A DNA stretch of 41,570 nucleotides. Origin: a virus. Location of the stretch: positions 1 through 41,570 of the IMG/VR virus record IMGVR_UViG_3300048919_000255. The stretch is one strand, 5' to 3'. The translations under genes were made by a program, and so were the position numbers. This document shows, one piece after another, positions 3,374 to 35,027 of the stretch. The first letter of the stretch is position 1, and each line of letters starts with the position of its first letter. The notes under the pieces were generated by a model, which saw only the letters and a program-made list of their open reading frames with translations, made no database searches and was not told where the DNA came from.

Positions 3374-3468
3374 TAAAAACGCCTCCTTTCGAACTAATAC
3401 TTTCGGCGCAGAAAAAGGAATATCCTTCCTTAGTGTCGAAGTATGACCTAAAAAGGGGGATTGAAATT

Positions 3469-4494
3469 GTGGATATTAATAATGTTAATAATTTGTTGTG
3501 GAAATTAAGTGAAGTTGACGACACTATTCTGAGTGATTTAAGTCTTACTTTGAGCTTAGTCAAAAAGCAAAAGGAGTCTGACTTATGCTATCAATCTCTT
3601 GAGATATCACTTGCTCCAGAGGTGAAGGTATGGCTTAAGAAGAGCATTATAAAATCGTTGAAAAAACTAAAAGAAAAGGATTCTGAAGGTAAGGAAAAGT
3701 TTCTTGTTGGAGATTATAATCACGAAATAAAGAAGCAAGATCATATTGCTAAATATGATGTGACAGGCAAAGGGTTAGAAGATAAACTTAATAAAATGCT
3801 TACTTCAATAGCGACTCCCGATCCTTTGTTTGAAGAAGCGGACACTAACTTCCAAATGGTTAAAATATCTTATGGAACAGAACATGCATATTTTTGTTTT
3901 TATGGTGGCGTAAAGAAGAGTACTTCAAGAAAAAAAGCAGTATTCAGAAATACAAACAGATTCGAGTTTGTCAATCATACAGTTATTGATGTAGGCGGGA
4001 ATTTTAGCTTTATTATTGTGGGAATGAATATATTTATTTTAAATATTACTAACTTTGAAAATGCTTTTGATTATAGAGACCATATCACTGAATTAAGAGA
4101 TGAAAATCTTAAAGAAATAACGTCAATGCCCTTTTTTGAAGGGGAAGATTCAAATAAAGAAAAGTTTTTAAATTCTTGTAAGACCTTTATTCATTCAAGG
4201 GGGTTAGCCCAAATAAAACCAGAGACAATTTCGGTGTTACAAGATAAATTTAAGGAAAGATGCGATGAATTATCAATAATACGAAGAAGTGCTCCTAGTG
4301 ATCCAGAACAAAAAAAATTATATATTGAAAAAAACGGATCTCTTTGGCAACTGTTAGAATATATAAATGTTGAAGAGTACAAAATAACTTACAAAGAGGG
4401 GGATAATCCGACTCCATTAATTCATTTTTTTGCAGACAAGATTGCAAAGTCATTCTTAACAGAAGACGTCAGAGTTGTTACTGCTTATGAGTGA
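3469..4494 (+). CDS. KwaB-like (DUF4868) anti-phage protein candidate
   Basis: 341 aa from GTG 3469, chosen because AAAAGGGGG lies nine bases upstream; an in-frame GTG at 3433 has no ribosome site. The middle has the pattern typical of DUF4868/KwaB as I know it: NRFEFVNHTVIDVGGNF, a beta strand with FIIVGMNIFILN, then NFENAFDYRDHI, followed by a helical C-terminus ending in IHFFADKIAKSF. Length is close to Kiwa KwaB (roughly 300-350 aa). KwaB works with the membrane protein KwaA in the Kiwa defence system. The next gene, 36 bases downstream, encodes a multi-pass membrane protein of suitable size. Base composition is clearly more AT-rich than the structural genes, which suggests separate acquisition. 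Family call by eye. Confidence 0.65.
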   Translation: MDINNVNNLLWKLSEVDDTILSDLSLTLSLVKKQKESDLCYQSLEISLAPEVKVWLKKSIIKSLKKLKEKDSEGKEKFLVGDYNHEIKKQDHIAKYDVTGKGLEDKLNKMLTSIATPDPLFEEADTNFQMVKISYGTEHAYFCFYGGVKKSTSRKKAVFRNTNRFEFVNHTVIDVGGNFSFIIVGMNIFILNITNFENAFDYRDHITELRDENLKEITSMPFFEGEDSNKEKFLNSCKTFIHSRGLAQIKPETISVLQDKFKERCDELSIIRRSAPSDPEQKKLYIEKNGSLWQLLEYINVEEYKITYKEGDNPTPLIHFFADKIAKSFLTEDVRVVTAYE

Positions 4495-5225: not shown

Positions 5226-5479
5226 TGCCTTAATTCCACCAGGAAGGAGGTGTTAATAATAGAAGAGAGCATATTAATTTACATTGGTCCGCCGATCCCA
5301 TCGCGCGGCTACGGATGTGGCTGGTCTTGTTGCGGACTTTAATTCTTTGCCTGGCAAGCTCCGTACTGCGGGTGTCTTGGCACCGTAAGTTACTTAAAGT
5401 GGTTAATGGTATTGACCATCCTGGTGATATAGTTTACACTAGCCCTAATGACAATACGATCACTAGGGGGTTTGGTGGA
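5226..5479 (+). other. Apparently scrambled coding remnant
   Basis: A near-ideal ribosome site, AGGAAGGAGGTG (5241-5252), is not followed by a normal start at proper spacing. One frame encodes ILIYIGPPIPSRGYG and stops at 5340. The LIYIGP motif and its DNA resemble the start of the core of the gene at 15619. The other two frames are partly open, one giving NSLPGKLRTAGVLAP, and one stays open into the winged-helix gene. This looks like a broken or recombined small gene. Confidence 0.35.
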
Positions 5480-5809
5480 ATGGATATCACAGGAAGGGAA
5501 TTACTTCGTTACAATCAGGTTAGAGATGAGGAATATACTTACGTACCTCATGGGCTTGAGCGAATGAAGTTGAGTGGCACTGAATTTTCTATTTATTTTC
5601 TGTTACTGATACGGATTGATAAGAATGACCGAGTAGAAGTGAGTTACAACGAGCTCGCTGAAAAAGCTAATATTTCGCGTAGAACAGCTATCCGTGCGCT
5701 TGCTGGTTTGGAAGAACACGGGCTGGTTAAACGAGTGAAACAATCGGCAGAAGACGGTAGCTTGCTGAAAAACGCCTATGAGATATACCGCCCGATAGAG
5801 ACTGAGTAA
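5480..5809 (+). CDS. Winged-helix DNA-binding protein
   Basis: 109 aa from ATG 5480, preceded by AGGGGG at 8-base spacing. The frame is open further upstream, but that part overlaps a scrambled segment. The C-terminal half is a clear winged helix: KLSGTEFSIYFLLLIRID (helix 1), SYNELAEKANISRRTAIRAL (HTH, recognition helix SRRTAIRAL) and GLVKRVKQ (wing). Helix-turn-helix proteins of this type are found among phage replication initiators and late-gene activators. It is followed five bases later by a second, related winged-helix gene, and then by the repeat cluster at 6139-6321, which is a plausible target. Confidence 0.7.
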   Translation: MDITGRELLRYNQVRDEEYTYVPHGLERMKLSGTEFSIYFLLLIRIDKNDRVEVSYNELAEKANISRRTAIRALAGLEEHGLVKRVKQSAEDGSLLKNAYEIYRPIETE

Positions 5810-5814
5810 CGCCT

Positions 5815-6114
5815 ATGAAGCTTTCTAAGGATTTTTTCAAAGGACCCAATGAAGTGTTTGAAATCGGATTGAATCCTTATCAAATTTCCGTCTACTTATA
5901 TCTTTGTCGGTGTGGTAATGATGGTAAGATCCCATTCCCAGGATTAAGAACTATTGAGGCGAAGTGTGGTATGAGTCGTCCGAAGGTTATTAAAACATTG
6001 GAAGAGTTAGAGGCTTTGGGACTCATCAATAAGGAAAAACGAGTGAGCGGGAGTGGAAATAAGAGCAACGTTTATACCCTGCATGCTCCTACTAAATTAG
6101 AGAACGACGTTTAA
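5815..6114 (+). CDS. Winged-helix protein (HTH_36-type, replication-initiator-like)
   Basis: 99 aa, starting five bases after the previous stop. NPYQISVYLYLCRCGNDGK leads into a winged helix: FPGLRTIEAKCGMSRPKVIK (HTH) and LEALGLINKEKR (wing). The pattern fits HTH_36-type domains found in plasmid/phage replication initiators and DnaD-like proteins, but no second replication domain is present. It is probably a transcription or replication regulator acting with the tandem neighbour. The downstream repeats suggest a binding site. Confidence 0.7.
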   Translation: MKLSKDFFKGPNEVFEIGLNPYQISVYLYLCRCGNDGKIPFPGLRTIEAKCGMSRPKVIKTLEELEALGLINKEKRVSGSGNKSNVYTLHAPTKLENDV

Positions 6115-17963: not shown

Positions 17964-18008
17964 TCATTTCCGGGCGTTGACCCGGATTTAAATATGGAGG
18001 GTTTTAAC

Positions 18009-18350
18009 ATGACAACTAATATTACAAAAGAAGCAGGATTGAAACCAGTGGAGAAGGTAGAAGATACTTCACAATATACGCTTAAATTCGATAAACCTTG
18101 GGACTTTGAAGGCGAAAAATATACGGAATTGAAATTTGATTTTAACAAAATCAATGGTCGTAAGTTGATTGCACTTACTAAAAGACTGGACCTTAATGAT
18201 ATGAAAACCCCCGTCAAGGCAATTAGTATGGAATTGCAGGCTGCTGTATGTGCTGAGGCTGCAGGTGTTCCGATGGAGTTGATTCTCGAACTTCCGGCCA
18301 ACTATTTTTCTAAAGTGACTGTTATGGCTCAGAATTTTTTGCTGCTATAG
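18009..18350 (+). CDS. Tail assembly chaperone, 0-frame product (gpE-like)
   Basis: 113 aa from ATG 18009 (TGGAGG upstream; ATG 17994 overlaps that site). YTLKFDKPWDFEGEKYTELK and FDFNKINGRKLIALTKRL are typical of P2 gpE/tail-assembly chaperones. It ends ...MAQNFLLL just after the slippery sequence TTTTTTG. It should coat the tape measure protein during tail assembly, with the longer frameshift product made as a minor partner. Confidence 0.85.
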   Translation: MTTNITKEAGLKPVEKVEDTSQYTLKFDKPWDFEGEKYTELKFDFNKINGRKLIALTKRLDLNDMKTPVKAISMELQAAVCAEAAGVPMELILELPANYFSKVTVMAQNFLLL

Positions 18351-18551: not shown

Positions 18552-19885
18552 GTGGGACGCGAATATGATGTGGCGATGAAGCTTGCGGCGAACCTTGACC
18601 AAAGCTTTTTTGGTGCGTTCGATAAGGCCATTCAAAAAGTGAATGGTCTTGAGAACAGCTTTAAAGAACTTAAAAATATCCAGATGCCTACTGGAGCGAT
18701 TACCAATTTGCAGCAAGAAGTTGGGCAGTTAAATACTAAGCTGCAAAGCGTTAATGCCAACCGGGTTGGGGAAAACGTCTTTAAGCCCCTAAAGGACGAC
18801 ATTAGGGACGTGAAGACAGAGCTTACACGGCTCCAGTCCATGCGTTTGTCGGGAGATATAACCCGTGCGCTGGAGGTTAATGTTCAGGGGCTTGAACACA
18901 AGCTTAAAGCCCTTGGGCATTTGAGGATCGGCGCGAAAGTATTCGAACCGATGATGGCAGACGCAAGAGCAGTTGAGGCGCAAATACGTGTCATTCAGTC
19001 CATGCGCATCACGGGTGATATCGTCAAAGATATCCGTGAAGATTTGAAGAAGCTGGAAAGTGAATTTAAAGATATCAAGCGAATAAACGGCCCCAAAGAC
19101 GTTTTCCAGAACATGATTAGCGAATTGAAAATTGTTATTCCAGATCTGCGAGAGATGAAGAAGCTTCTTGCAGACATAGCCCGCATTCGCATGCCTTCAA
19201 ACCAATTCGGAAACGACATTGAAGCGTATGTAAGGCAGATTAAAGAATTAGAGAAGCGAATGAGAGATATCCAACGCATTAACGGTCCTTCGGGCGGTGG
19301 TGGCGGTGGATCTGGCGGAGATGATTCAGGGGGCGGCGGTACATTACTTGCCGCTGGTGGAGCTGGGATGATGGCGGGAGCTGCCGTGGCTGCGGGCGGC
19401 TTTTTTGCGTTTAAATATGCGGACGAATACCAGAAGGCCATGCTTCAAATCCAAGCCAGTACAGGGCAGACAGAAGCGCAGATGAAGGGCATGAAAGACA
19501 TTGCCAAGAATCTGTACAATCAGAAGCTAGGTGAGGATTGGAACGATCTAGCGCTTGTCGTCGGTAAGGCGAAAAACGTCTTGAAGCAAACCGGGCCTGA
19601 ACTAGAAAAATCAGCACGAGGCGCGATTGTCCTTCGAGACACCTTCGAAAATCTGGATGTTGATGAGTCTATTAAGACCGTCGATACCATGATGAAAAAC
19701 TTTGGTATCACATCGGAGCAGGCTTACAATTTGCTTGCACAGGGCGCACAGAAGGGGCTGGACAAGTCCGGCGAATTGTTGGACAGCGCCAATGAATATT
19801 CGGCCTACTTTGCAAAATTAGGATTCAGCGCAGAAGGTATGTTCGATATTTTTTCTGCAGGTCTGGATGCCGGGGCCTTTAACCT
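18552..19885 (+). CDS. Tape measure protein, exon 1 (residues 1-445)
   Basis: Starts at GTG 18552, just after the chaperone extension. The N-terminal ~230 residues are helical heptad-like repeats with recurring 'LKxIxxxMRxxGDI' units. Then comes a Gly-rich linker (SGGGGGGSGGDDSGGGG), a hydrophobic segment LLAAGGAGMMAGAAVAAGG, and the TP901-type tape measure core (AMLQIQASTGQTEAQMKGMK). The coding sense ends at ...AGLDAGAFN-CT and resumes at 20149: joining the exons gives GAFNLDKVGDGIKEFGIR, the expected core sequence. Exon lengths total 3288 nt (1095 aa), divisible by three. Unspliced reading would end at 19949 with an unrelated tail. Confidence 0.9.
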
Positions 19886-20148
19886 TTTTATTAGGGCTTT
19901 ATGGCGGCGACGCCATACCGAAACCTCTCTAATTCATGGGAAACCCTAACGTTGAGACGAGGGAAATCATGAGCGAAGTCCGTGATATACGGGAACGTGC
20001 AACGACTATCGGTGAGAAACCGAGTACACGCAAGCGCGTGGAAATGGGAGGGGACTCTTAGGAGTTCTTGATATAGTCTGATCTGCATGGAAACATGCAG
20101 CTGCCTTTAGTGGCGGGTAAGGCGTAGCGAGCCTTGCTGAACAGTATG
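19886..20148 (+). ncRNA. Group I intron in the tape measure gene (263 nt, no endonuclease ORF)
   Basis: Core elements are visible. P1: exon CCT with GGG (19894-19896), U-G pair at the 5' splice site. P2: ATGGCG-GCGA-CGCCAT (19901-19916). P7: AACGACTA (20001-20008) with TAGTC (20074-20078), in the classic GATATAGTC context. P7.1/7.2-like hairpins CGGTGAGAAACCG and CACGC-AAGC-GCGTG. P9: CTGCATG-GAAA-CATGCAG (20083-20100). The last base is G (20148). P10: the first seven bases of exon 2 (TGATAAA) pair with intron TTTATTA (19887-19893). Splicing restores the tape measure frame. Too short for a homing endonuclease gene. Confidence 0.9.
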
Positions 20149-22102
20149 TGATAAAGTCGGTGACGGTATTAAGGAATTTGGTATCCGTACAAAAGACGGA
20201 TCTAAATCATCATTAGAGGCATACAAATCCATCGGGCTCGGCGGTAAAGAAATGACAGCAGCATTCGCCAAAGGCGGTAAGACCGCACAGGAAGCATTCC
20301 TGAAAACCGTGAAGGCTATCGAAGCAGTGAAGGACCCGGTTTTGAAGAATGCTGTTTCTGTGCAGTTGTTTGGTACCCAAGCCGAAGATTTGGAAGCTCG
20401 CGTAATCAAGTCTTATGGCAATGTTAAAAAGCAGTTTGACAAGACCAAGAACAGCATTGACGAGATGGCAAAAATAAAATATAGCAGCATGGGCGATGCG
20501 TTTAAGGGGATCGGACGGCAGCTGCTTACAAGCATAATTATTCCTGTCTCTAACCTACTGTTGCCAGCCTTCAATAAGTTCAGTAACTGGTTTAATCAAA
20601 CAGGGCCGATGATAAGTAAATTCTTTTCTGAGGTTGGGACTGGGTTAAGCCGAGTCGGTAAAATCATCAAAAAAAGTGGTCAGCTACTTGAAAACACCTG
20701 GAACAACACTGGTTATTACACCGCTGCGGTTGGGATAACCAATATCGGTAAGGAAATAGGACTGAGTGAGGAGAATGCCTACAAGCTATCCGGTGCTATT
20801 ACTGATATAACTGATCGACTGTCTGGATTAAAGCCCTATGTTGATATTCTTAAAGGATTAGGCGATGTAGCTTACAACGTCACAATTGGCACTGGTGATA
20901 TATCAGGAGTACAACAAATCAATAAAGGTTTGCAGTCCATTGGATTCAGCCCGGATCAGGCTATTCAAATATCGAATAGTGCAGTTGATATATTCGATAA
21001 TATACGAGGCAAGGCGGAAGTATTTGTTGCAAGTCTCAAGCCGATCATGGGCGATATTAAAGGATATTTTAAAGAGGCCTTCACATTTGGGACTGATTTG
21101 GATTTTAGAGAGATTGTAGACAGTGTGAGTGATCTTCGCAAATCTATCACGCCTGTAATAGAATCTATTGCCTCTGGGATCGGCCCAGCATTGCATCCTG
21201 TCACTTCTCTGCTTGTTCCACTTATGAAGGTTGGAAAGCAAGCGTTCAATGCGATAATCCCTTTGGTTATGAAACTATCATCTTCTATTTCTTCCAAGCT
21301 TGGACCTGTGTTTACGTCAGTTTTTGGATATTTGACGAAAACTTTGTTGCCTCAGGTCAGTTCTGTACTGGCTGCATGGTTGCCTAAGATCGGAGCGCTG
21401 TTTAGCAAGGTCGGTGGGCTGATTATGGCAATATACAACACAGGTATTGCGCCTGTAATTGATAGTTTGGTCGGTATATTCAAATGGGCATGGCCTGTTA
21501 TCACTGCGGCTGTGACAGGTGCAATTAATATACTCAAGCCTGTTATCGGCGGAATTATTGATGTACTGGGCGGTGTAATTGACTTTTTGACAGGGGTTTT
21601 CACAGGGAATTGGGATCTGGCATGGCAGGGTATAAAAGAGGTCGCTGTCGGTATATGGGATAGTATCACAGGTGCTGTGAAAGCGGCATTTAACAATGTC
21701 ATCGCAATTATCAATTCAGCCATCCAGAAAGTAAACAGCTTTAGTTTCACTATGCCCGATTTACTCGGAGGCGAGACAATAGGAAGTTTAGGAATACCTG
21801 AAATTCCAATGCTTGCAGACGGAGATATTACCAACCGTCCGTCGATCATGGGTGAGGCGGGCTGGGAAGCCGCCATTCCTATTAACAATAAGCCTAGATC
21901 CATGAATCTACTGGAAAAAACAAATAGACTTATGGGCTACAATCCAAGCAGTGGCGGCGATAACTTGAACCTTAACTTTAATATTGTAATCCAAGGAAAT
22001 GCGGACGAAGAAGTAATGACGCAGGCAGTTAAGGCGGCAGAACCTTCTTTCCGTCAGCAGTATAAGCAAATGCAACGGCAAGATGCGAGGACAAGCCTAT
22101 GA
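20149..22102 (+). CDS. Tape measure protein, exon 2 (residues 445-1095)
   Basis: Continues from the Leu codon split by the intron: DKVGDGIKEFGIRTKDGSKS, then MTAAFAKGGKTAQEAFLKTV and VQLFGTQAEDLEARVI, standard TP901 core sequence. Hydrophobic repeats in the C-terminal half (e.g. ITAAVTGAINILKPVIGGII) are typical of tape measures. The end, GEAGWEAAIPINNKPRSMNL, then VIQGNADEEVMTQAV, is the usual C-terminal 'tail completion' region. An ORF caller would start this exon at an internal ATG (20252); that start is an artefact of the intron. Confidence 0.9.
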
Positions 22103-34175: not shown

Positions 34176-35027
34176 TTGAGGTTTTCTGAAAGGATAGGGA
34201 GAACATCTGCTAAGGTTGATATACAAATTGAATCAATGGACGACGATCTTAGAGTAGGTCTTTGGAATTGTTTTCAGGAATTTGCTCTTGGTAATTATAA
34301 AACTACTTTTGCTTCTCAAAGTTTATTGATGCCTCTATTCAGACAACTATGGAGAGACTTTTTCAAGTTGCCTATGGATACTATTCCAGACTTTTTTTCA
34401 GCCCTAGAAATATTTTTGAAGGATAAATTTTTTAAATTGGAATGGTTCTCGGTATATGATTTTATCGAATTTACTATTCAAGCATATTCATTGCCTAAAA
34501 CCTTAGCTAAGCATTTAACTATATCATGCAATCATATTTTGGAAAGGGAGTTATCCGCCTACAGAATAGTTGGAACTGAAATTACACAAATCACAGATAA
34601 AAATGAAGTAAAAGAAATTGAGGAAGGATTGGCGAAATCAGCCATACTTCCTTTGAAATCAGTCAGTATTCATTTGACCACAGCCCTTTCCCTGCTCTCA
34701 GATAGAAAGTCTCCTGACTATAGGAATTCAATCAAGGAATCTATCTCAGCTGTCGAGTCCATTGCTCAAATCATATCAGGAGAGCACAAAGCTGAACTTG
34801 GAAAAGCATTGAAAATACTATCAGATAAAATTGGATTGCACGGTGGTTTAAAGGCTGGATTTTCTTCAATTTATGGTTACACAAGTGACGAGGGTGGTAT
34901 TCGTCACGCAATGTCAGATGAAAAAGAAATATGCTTTGAAGATGCGAAATACATGCTCGTTGCTTGCTCTGCTTTTGTAAATTACTTGATCGTGAAGGCA
35001 GATAAGGCGGGGATCGTTTTGGGATAA
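34176..35027 (+). CDS. AbiJ-NTD4-type abortive infection protein candidate
   Basis: 283 aa from TTG 34176 with GGAGGAATC upstream. It opens with RFSERIGRTSAKVDIQIESM and DDDLRVGLWNCFQEF, the start typical of AbiJ-NTD4 domains. The C-terminal half has the associated helical domain: YRNSIKESISAVESIAQIIS, LGKALKILSDKIGLHGGLKA, then YGYTSDEGGIRHAMSDE and YMLVACSAFVNYLIVK, with an R-H pair (GGIRHA) that could be a HEPN-like nuclease motif. AbiJ-type proteins act in abortive infection. AT-rich and monocistronic. Function inferred by family resemblance; not tested. Confidence 0.75.
   Translation: MRFSERIGRTSAKVDIQIESMDDDLRVGLWNCFQEFALGNYKTTFASQSLLMPLFRQLWRDFFKLPMDTIPDFFSALEIFLKDKFFKLEWFSVYDFIEFTIQAYSLPKTLAKHLTISCNHILERELSAYRIVGTEITQITDKNEVKEIEEGLAKSAILPLKSVSIHLTTALSLLSDRKSPDYRNSIKESISAVESIAQIISGEHKAELGKALKILSDKIGLHGGLKAGFSSIYGYTSDEGGIRHAMSDEKEICFEDAKYMLVACSAFVNYLIVKADKAGIVLG

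Follow-up and report, generated by a model that had tools for sequence, protein, structure and literature searches.

It has long been asked by what route group I introns without a gene of their own spread, and the question is raised here by the tape measure gene of a phage: is the insert that interrupts this gene an intron that can be spliced out, and how did it reach its position? The window, i.e., the whole stretch of DNA analysed, is an IMG/VR virus record of 41,570 bases from a temperate, contractile-tailed phage of the Paenibacillaceae type, with genes for an integrase, terminase gpA, a lambda-type portal, sheath-like and tube proteins, GpU, GPD and baseplate J. Ahead of the tape measure gene, the tail assembly chaperone gene (17994-18350) has a T TTT TTG slippery heptamer (18335-18341) just before its stop codon, and the -1 frame is open to about 18548, which is the usual tail-chaperone frameshift. 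A tRNA-Ile-like gene with the anticodon UAU (2711-2783), near the integrase end, could be an attachment site or a phage tRNA. Two neighbouring ORFs (5315-5809 and 5815-6114) both resemble the N-terminal part of a phage replication initiator, and 3433-4494 and 34176-35027, with Pfam KwaB-like and AbiJ_NTD4 domains, are possible phage-borne defence genes.

Location and boundaries of the intron

The tape measure gene extends from a GTG start codon at 18552 to 22102 on the plus strand. When the message is read unspliced, the ORF opening at 18552 closes after 465 amino acids (18552-19949), as the original prediction of an early end had implied. An Rfam search matched 19876-20100 to positions 1 to 253 of the model RF00028 with 82.4 bits (E = 1.3e-19; gathering score, 50). 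The intron itself lies at 19886-20148 (263 nt), also on the plus strand, between exon 1 (18552-19885) and exon 2 (20149-22102), and its last nucleotide is a G (G20148). Its removal from the 3,551 nt of the gene leaves 3,288 nt, i.e., 1,095 codons and a stop codon, and the junction AAC CT|T GAT AAA is then read as N-L-D-K. The restored frame and the sequence GAFNL-DKVGDG are those that had been predicted, and they are found in intronless homologues. Indeed, in the intronless L002 (98% identity over 155 residues) the sequence is AACCTTGATAAAGTC, exactly the joined window exons, and the loci that read through the insertion site without interruption number well above one hundred, though not every one is distinct. 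Moreover, Pfam recognizes a single PhageMin_Tail domain, the first part of which lies in exon 1 and the rest in exon 2. Annotators should note that in records of this kind the tape measure gene comes in pieces, each of which may be called as a gene of its own.

The intron region folds with a z score of -3.6 compared to shuffled sequences. With this value and the compensatory changes described below, the insert stands well above chance. Taken together with the intact gene that results from joining the exons, the sequence makes it very probable that 19886-20148 is an endonuclease-free, IA-like group I intron that is predicted to splice.

Structure and conservation of the intron RNA

Seven introns from different phages, each with 12 nt of exon per side, were aligned, and 80 base pairs were named in 16 helices. 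These pairs hold in 97.3% of the base-pair cells across the seven introns, a percentage that is favoured by the helices having been drawn from the window sequence; more weight lies on the compensated changes. Twenty pairs were changed on both sides, compared to 8.2 ± 1.9 in shuffles, none of which (0 of 500) reached 20. When the partners were slid by 1 to 3 columns, pairing fell to 35 to 48%.

At the 5' end, the internal guide UUUAUUAGGG (19887-19896) pairs with CCU|UGAUAAA, giving 3 bp of P1 and 7 bp of P10. P1 (19883-19896) is formed by the exon CCU (19883-19885) and the guide GGG (19894-19896) and is kept in all seven introns, each with a U.G wobble at the 5' splice site. P10 (19887-20155) is formed by the guide UUUAUUA (19887-19893) and UGAUAAA of exon 2 (20149-20155), and two of its positions are altered on both sides among the relatives: where the window has guide A and exon U, L105 and L106 have guide U and exon A, and in L092 both sides are changed at a different position. 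The P2 hairpin (19900-19917) has a GNRA loop (GCGA) and two compensated pairs, and P3 (19924-19929 with 20046-20051) is compensated in L105 and L106. The P4-P5-P6-P6a domain (19933-19997) was placed by the RF00028 match and the seven-intron alignment, and the P8 hairpin (20052-20067), P9 (20083-20100, with a GAAA loop), P9.1 (20101-20116) and P9.2 (20117-20137) were placed by the alignment. P7, the guanosine-binding helix (GACUA at 20004-20008 with UAGUC at 20074-20078), is invariant. P9.0 (20081-20082 with 20146-20147) changes from U-A to A-U in L098, L105 and L106. The hairpins P7.1 (20010-20022) and P7.2 (20027-20040) are found in all seven introns, the latter compensated in L092. An insertion of P7.1 and P7.2 between P7 and the 3' strand of P3 is typical of subgroup IA, and from it we take the window intron to be IA-like.

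The RNA therefore has the group I core (P3-P8 and P4-P6, with the guanosine site in P7) as well as group I ends, i.e., the U.G pair of P1, the internal guide and P10 on one side and the terminal G and P9.0 on the other. P1, P2, P7, P9, P10 and the terminal G had been named in the original prediction and were all recovered; P3 to P6, P6a, P7.1, P7.2, P8, P9.0, P9.1 and P9.2 were found in addition.

Predicted splicing and a competing P1

As a predicted self-splicing RNA, the intron would leave the tape measure mRNA by two guanosine-started transesterifications, with UUUAUUAGGG aligning CCU^ and ^UGAUAAA and with G20148 setting the 3' site, and the product would be a tape measure protein of 1,095 residues. 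A second pairing of the same guide competes with P1. In this P1' (19874-19898), GGCCUU of exon 1 (19874-19879) pairs with AGGGCU (19893-19898) at -5.2 kcal/mol, compared to -2.6 kcal/mol for the true P1, which has just 3 to 4 bp. If P1' were used, the 5' splice site would move 7 nt upstream, 7 nt more would be removed and the frame would be shifted. P10 and tertiary contacts may choose between the two.

The short P1 and the rival pairing would fit an inactive remnant that leaves the tape measure gene dead, but the core pairs, all of them intact and compensated, have been conserved in seven phages, and both exons are still open reading frames. Loss of splicing is thus very improbable, and from these features we infer that the intron is spliced in vivo. 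Nor does a regulatory switch that gates production of the tape measure or of late proteins fit well. The unspliced message would indeed give a truncated protein of 465 amino acids, but most relatives, the nearest among them, have this site empty, and an Rfam search found no further element at the locus. Such a switch has very little probability, and the regulation of late proteins suggested in the original prediction is speculative.

Distribution of the intron among phages

An intron at the same codon was found in seven distinct carriers: the window, L093 (the same as L045), L092, L107, L098, L105 and L106. The intron of L107 is identical to that of L097, probably one and the same prophage. 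All seven introns are 263 to 270 nt long. They are 76 to 95% identical, whereas the 150-nt exon flanks are 48 to 70% identical except in L105 and L106, and in every pair the intron is more similar than the flanks, if only narrowly in L105/L106 (92% versus 85 to 87%). The window and L093 are 95% identical in the intron but 60 to 70% identical in the exons, the value for the 150-nt flanks being 66 to 70%. In a quick maximum-likelihood tree of 104 tape measure proteins, the distribution of the seven carriers takes seven changes, no fewer than for labels placed at random, and the well-supported branches by themselves force at least four. The window's clade (99% support) includes the empty L002 as well as L022, L024 and L131 (the same record as L013) with another intron; empty alleles, alleles with the intron under study (site 1) and alleles with an intron at a second site (site 2) thus occur among near-identical tape measures.

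Since the introns are far more alike than the exons and are scattered over the tree, these comparisons indicate that the intron has moved between phages and that its family has spread horizontally. Old vertical inheritance with many losses would account for the identical codon in all seven carriers, but it is hard to reconcile with 95% identity in the intron against 60 to 70% in the exons, with as many changes as carriers (seven, of which at least four are forced) and with closest tape measure proteins that are intronless (L002) or interrupted at site 2 by another intron (L022 and L024); we consider it highly unlikely. The window phage very probably received the intron horizontally, by homing or recombination, at the strongly conserved motif GAFNL^DKVGDG, a tape measure motif that several unrelated group I introns use. 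The original prediction had called the spread of the intron open; the lack of a homing gene holds, but the question is now narrowed to horizontal spread to at least seven distantly related phages at one codon.

A search by pattern found no further carrier in 400 class-level genomes and, in 399 order-level genomes, two that were already known. Among plasmids, matches to the intron core were weak only. L095 and L096 were rejected as carriers (a chance 20-mer match), as were L031, L032, L033, L042 and L057, which have an in-frame insertion of 59 protein residues instead. L102 does have a group I intron at Rfam level, located in a different gene, and the Rfam search of L103 gave no match.

The intron is also represented in a CRISPR array. 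A spacer in L100 (1500-1533; G294, a genome of the Paenibacillaceae sample) matches window positions 19990-20023 in 32 of 34 bases, from the 3' strand of P6a to P7.1, and 20 near-exact copies of the repeat GTCGCACTCTACGTGAGTGCGTGGATTGAAAT were counted in the array. Because the spacer matches the intron core, a host may target intron DNA that is common to divergent phages. The 5' flank of the target is ATA in the window and differs from TTC, the flank expected for type I-C.

A second intron site 13 nt downstream

Site 2 lies at 20161-20162 (plus strand), after ...GTCGGT^GACGG (KVG^DG), and is empty in the window, but relatives have other group I introns there. They are of two classes. Introns of 221 to 229 nt without a gene are present in L022 (3160-3386), L024, L148, L161, L182 and L185, with a P1 of GUCGGU/GCCGAC, five to six P10 pairs, a P7 of GCAUA/UAUGC and a final G. 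The inserts of L022 and L024 are below the Rfam gathering score, that of L022 being unmatched even at E = 1; their assignment to group I was made manually, on P1, P10, P3, P7 and the terminal G. Introns of 1,358 to 1,367 nt lie exactly at site 2 in L099, L101, L159 and L184; their ORFs encode 360 to 379 amino acids, with GIY-YIG and NUMOD3 domains in the two that were scanned. A 36-nt P7-P9 core of these long introns is 94 to 97% identical to that of the window intron, so the two kinds share ancestry in the 3' core. The endonuclease ORFs extend into P7 and come from the direction of P6; their location is thus the P6 region, which in the window intron holds only a short variable hairpin. Among 350 Paenibacillaceae genomes, the endonuclease had two near-full-length relatives (52 to 63% identity over approximately 335 residues), both in site-2 introns, and five other matches that were short or weak.

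Thus, the site-2 introns are like the window intron in gene and conserved motif, and the GIY-YIG class also in P7-P9 sequence. They are unlike it in lying 13 nt downstream, one class with a core that Rfam misses and the other with a GIY-YIG endonuclease. Two further inserts were seen in tape measure genes: L092 has a second group I-like insert farther downstream, at approximately 1172-1428, in a motif corresponding to FGTQAED (RF00028, a weak 21.7 bits), and the gene of the annotated phage TPWB06 is split by another intron-like insert.

Spread of a gene-free intron

The 263-nt intron does not encode a homing endonuclease, the mark of a mobile group I intron, and no free-standing endonuclease beside the intron-bearing gene, as in collaborative homing, was recognized among the window ORFs. 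HNH, HNH_3 and GIY-YIG domains were absent from the whole 41.6-kb record, which agrees with the endonuclease-free state originally predicted; the search covered these three domains and Pfam and PHROG scans of the larger ORFs, and an unrecognized nuclease in the record is possible. The other site-1 virus records had none of the three domains and no site-2 endonuclease either. Because intron and record are without a recognized endonuclease, the probable course is either that the intron was spread in trans or that it spread before an endonuclease gene was lost; the agent of mobility is inferred.

That the intron first homed autonomously and that its endonuclease gene disappeared once it had arrived is possible, if less likely than not. 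This reading is consistent with the site-2 ORFs occupying the very P6 region that holds only a short variable hairpin in the window intron, and with the degeneration of endonuclease genes after invasion, which PMC4059233 gives as the standard life cycle. On the other hand, none of the seven site-1 introns has the gene or a recognizable remnant, and their length is uniform (263 to 270 nt). Alternatively, and compatible with the preferred explanation as a refinement of it, the GIY-YIG enzyme of site 2 might cut empty alleles, and repair from a site-1 donor would then spread the gene-free intron. We regard this as rather unlikely, and give the same standing to its second half, in which the site-1 intron splits the target of that endonuclease and so shields its host. 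I-TevI-type enzymes cleave well upstream of the insertion site. The GIY-YIG/NUMOD3 introns at site 2 in four relatives, the location of both near-full-length endonuclease relatives in site-2 introns and the near-identical P7-P9 cores argue in the same direction, and trans homing of gene-free introns has been documented (PMC3984707, PMC6083498). Against it, no record has both introns, the site-2 endonuclease is absent from all other virus records searched and the signal of flank co-conversion is weak.

Such co-conversion was also considered as proof of homing and was dropped: flank similarity is raised only in the three pairs of window, L093 and L098, some intronless pairs are equally alike and there is no general signal. 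The same flanks bear on ordinary phage recombination, by which the intron would have hitch-hiked with tape measure segments without any endonuclease. Tailed phages are mosaic, and DNA near the site is relatively conserved across all these phages, but near-flank identity averages 0.69 between intron-bearing pairs and 0.68 between intron-bearing and intronless pairs; thus, no exon block seems to have moved along, except perhaps tens of bases, and recombination of this kind is unlikely. It is more doubtful still that the adjacent sites form a competing pair in which the gene-free site-1 intron exploits its rivals' site-2 GIY-YIG enzyme and shields its host; if they did, the introns would act as alleles in phage-phage competition. 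Our preferred explanation remains horizontal arrival of an apparently splicing-competent intron, probably driven in trans or preceding the loss of its endonuclease gene.

Comparison with known systems

In the literature searched, no paper treats a Paenibacillus phage together with an intron and a tape measure. The original prediction that introns in tape measure genes are not common was overstated: according to a survey from 2023, this gene is frequently interrupted by homing endonucleases, and that of phage ICP1 has three spliced introns (PMC10448857). The ICP1 introns are spliced from tape measure mRNA, as is predicted for the window intron, and some of them likewise have no endonuclease gene; they differ in the phage lineage, in the HNH-3 endonucleases and in their number. 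The group I introns in phages of Gram-positive bacteria, namely those of SPbeta bnrdE, phiAGATE and Staphylococcus phages, are of the same RNA class, with core DNA about 67 to 77% identical, but they lie in other host genes, whereas the window intron has a tape measure site and no endonuclease gene. In cyanophage S-PM2 (the psbA intron and F-CphI) and in the ICP1 terminase gene, a group I intron likewise has a possible driver endonuclease outside it. In those systems one genome holds both, with the endonuclease adjoining the intron, whereas the nearest putative candidate for the window intron lies inside an intron of other phages, 13 nt away. Tape measure introns and trans or collaborative homing are thus already known (PMC3984707, PMC6083498, PMC10448857), and what is new is this intron and its informative hotspot, where seven carriers at one codon, a clade of mixed alleles and a candidate endonuclease 13 nt away in related phages open trans homing and intron-intron exclusion to direct tests.
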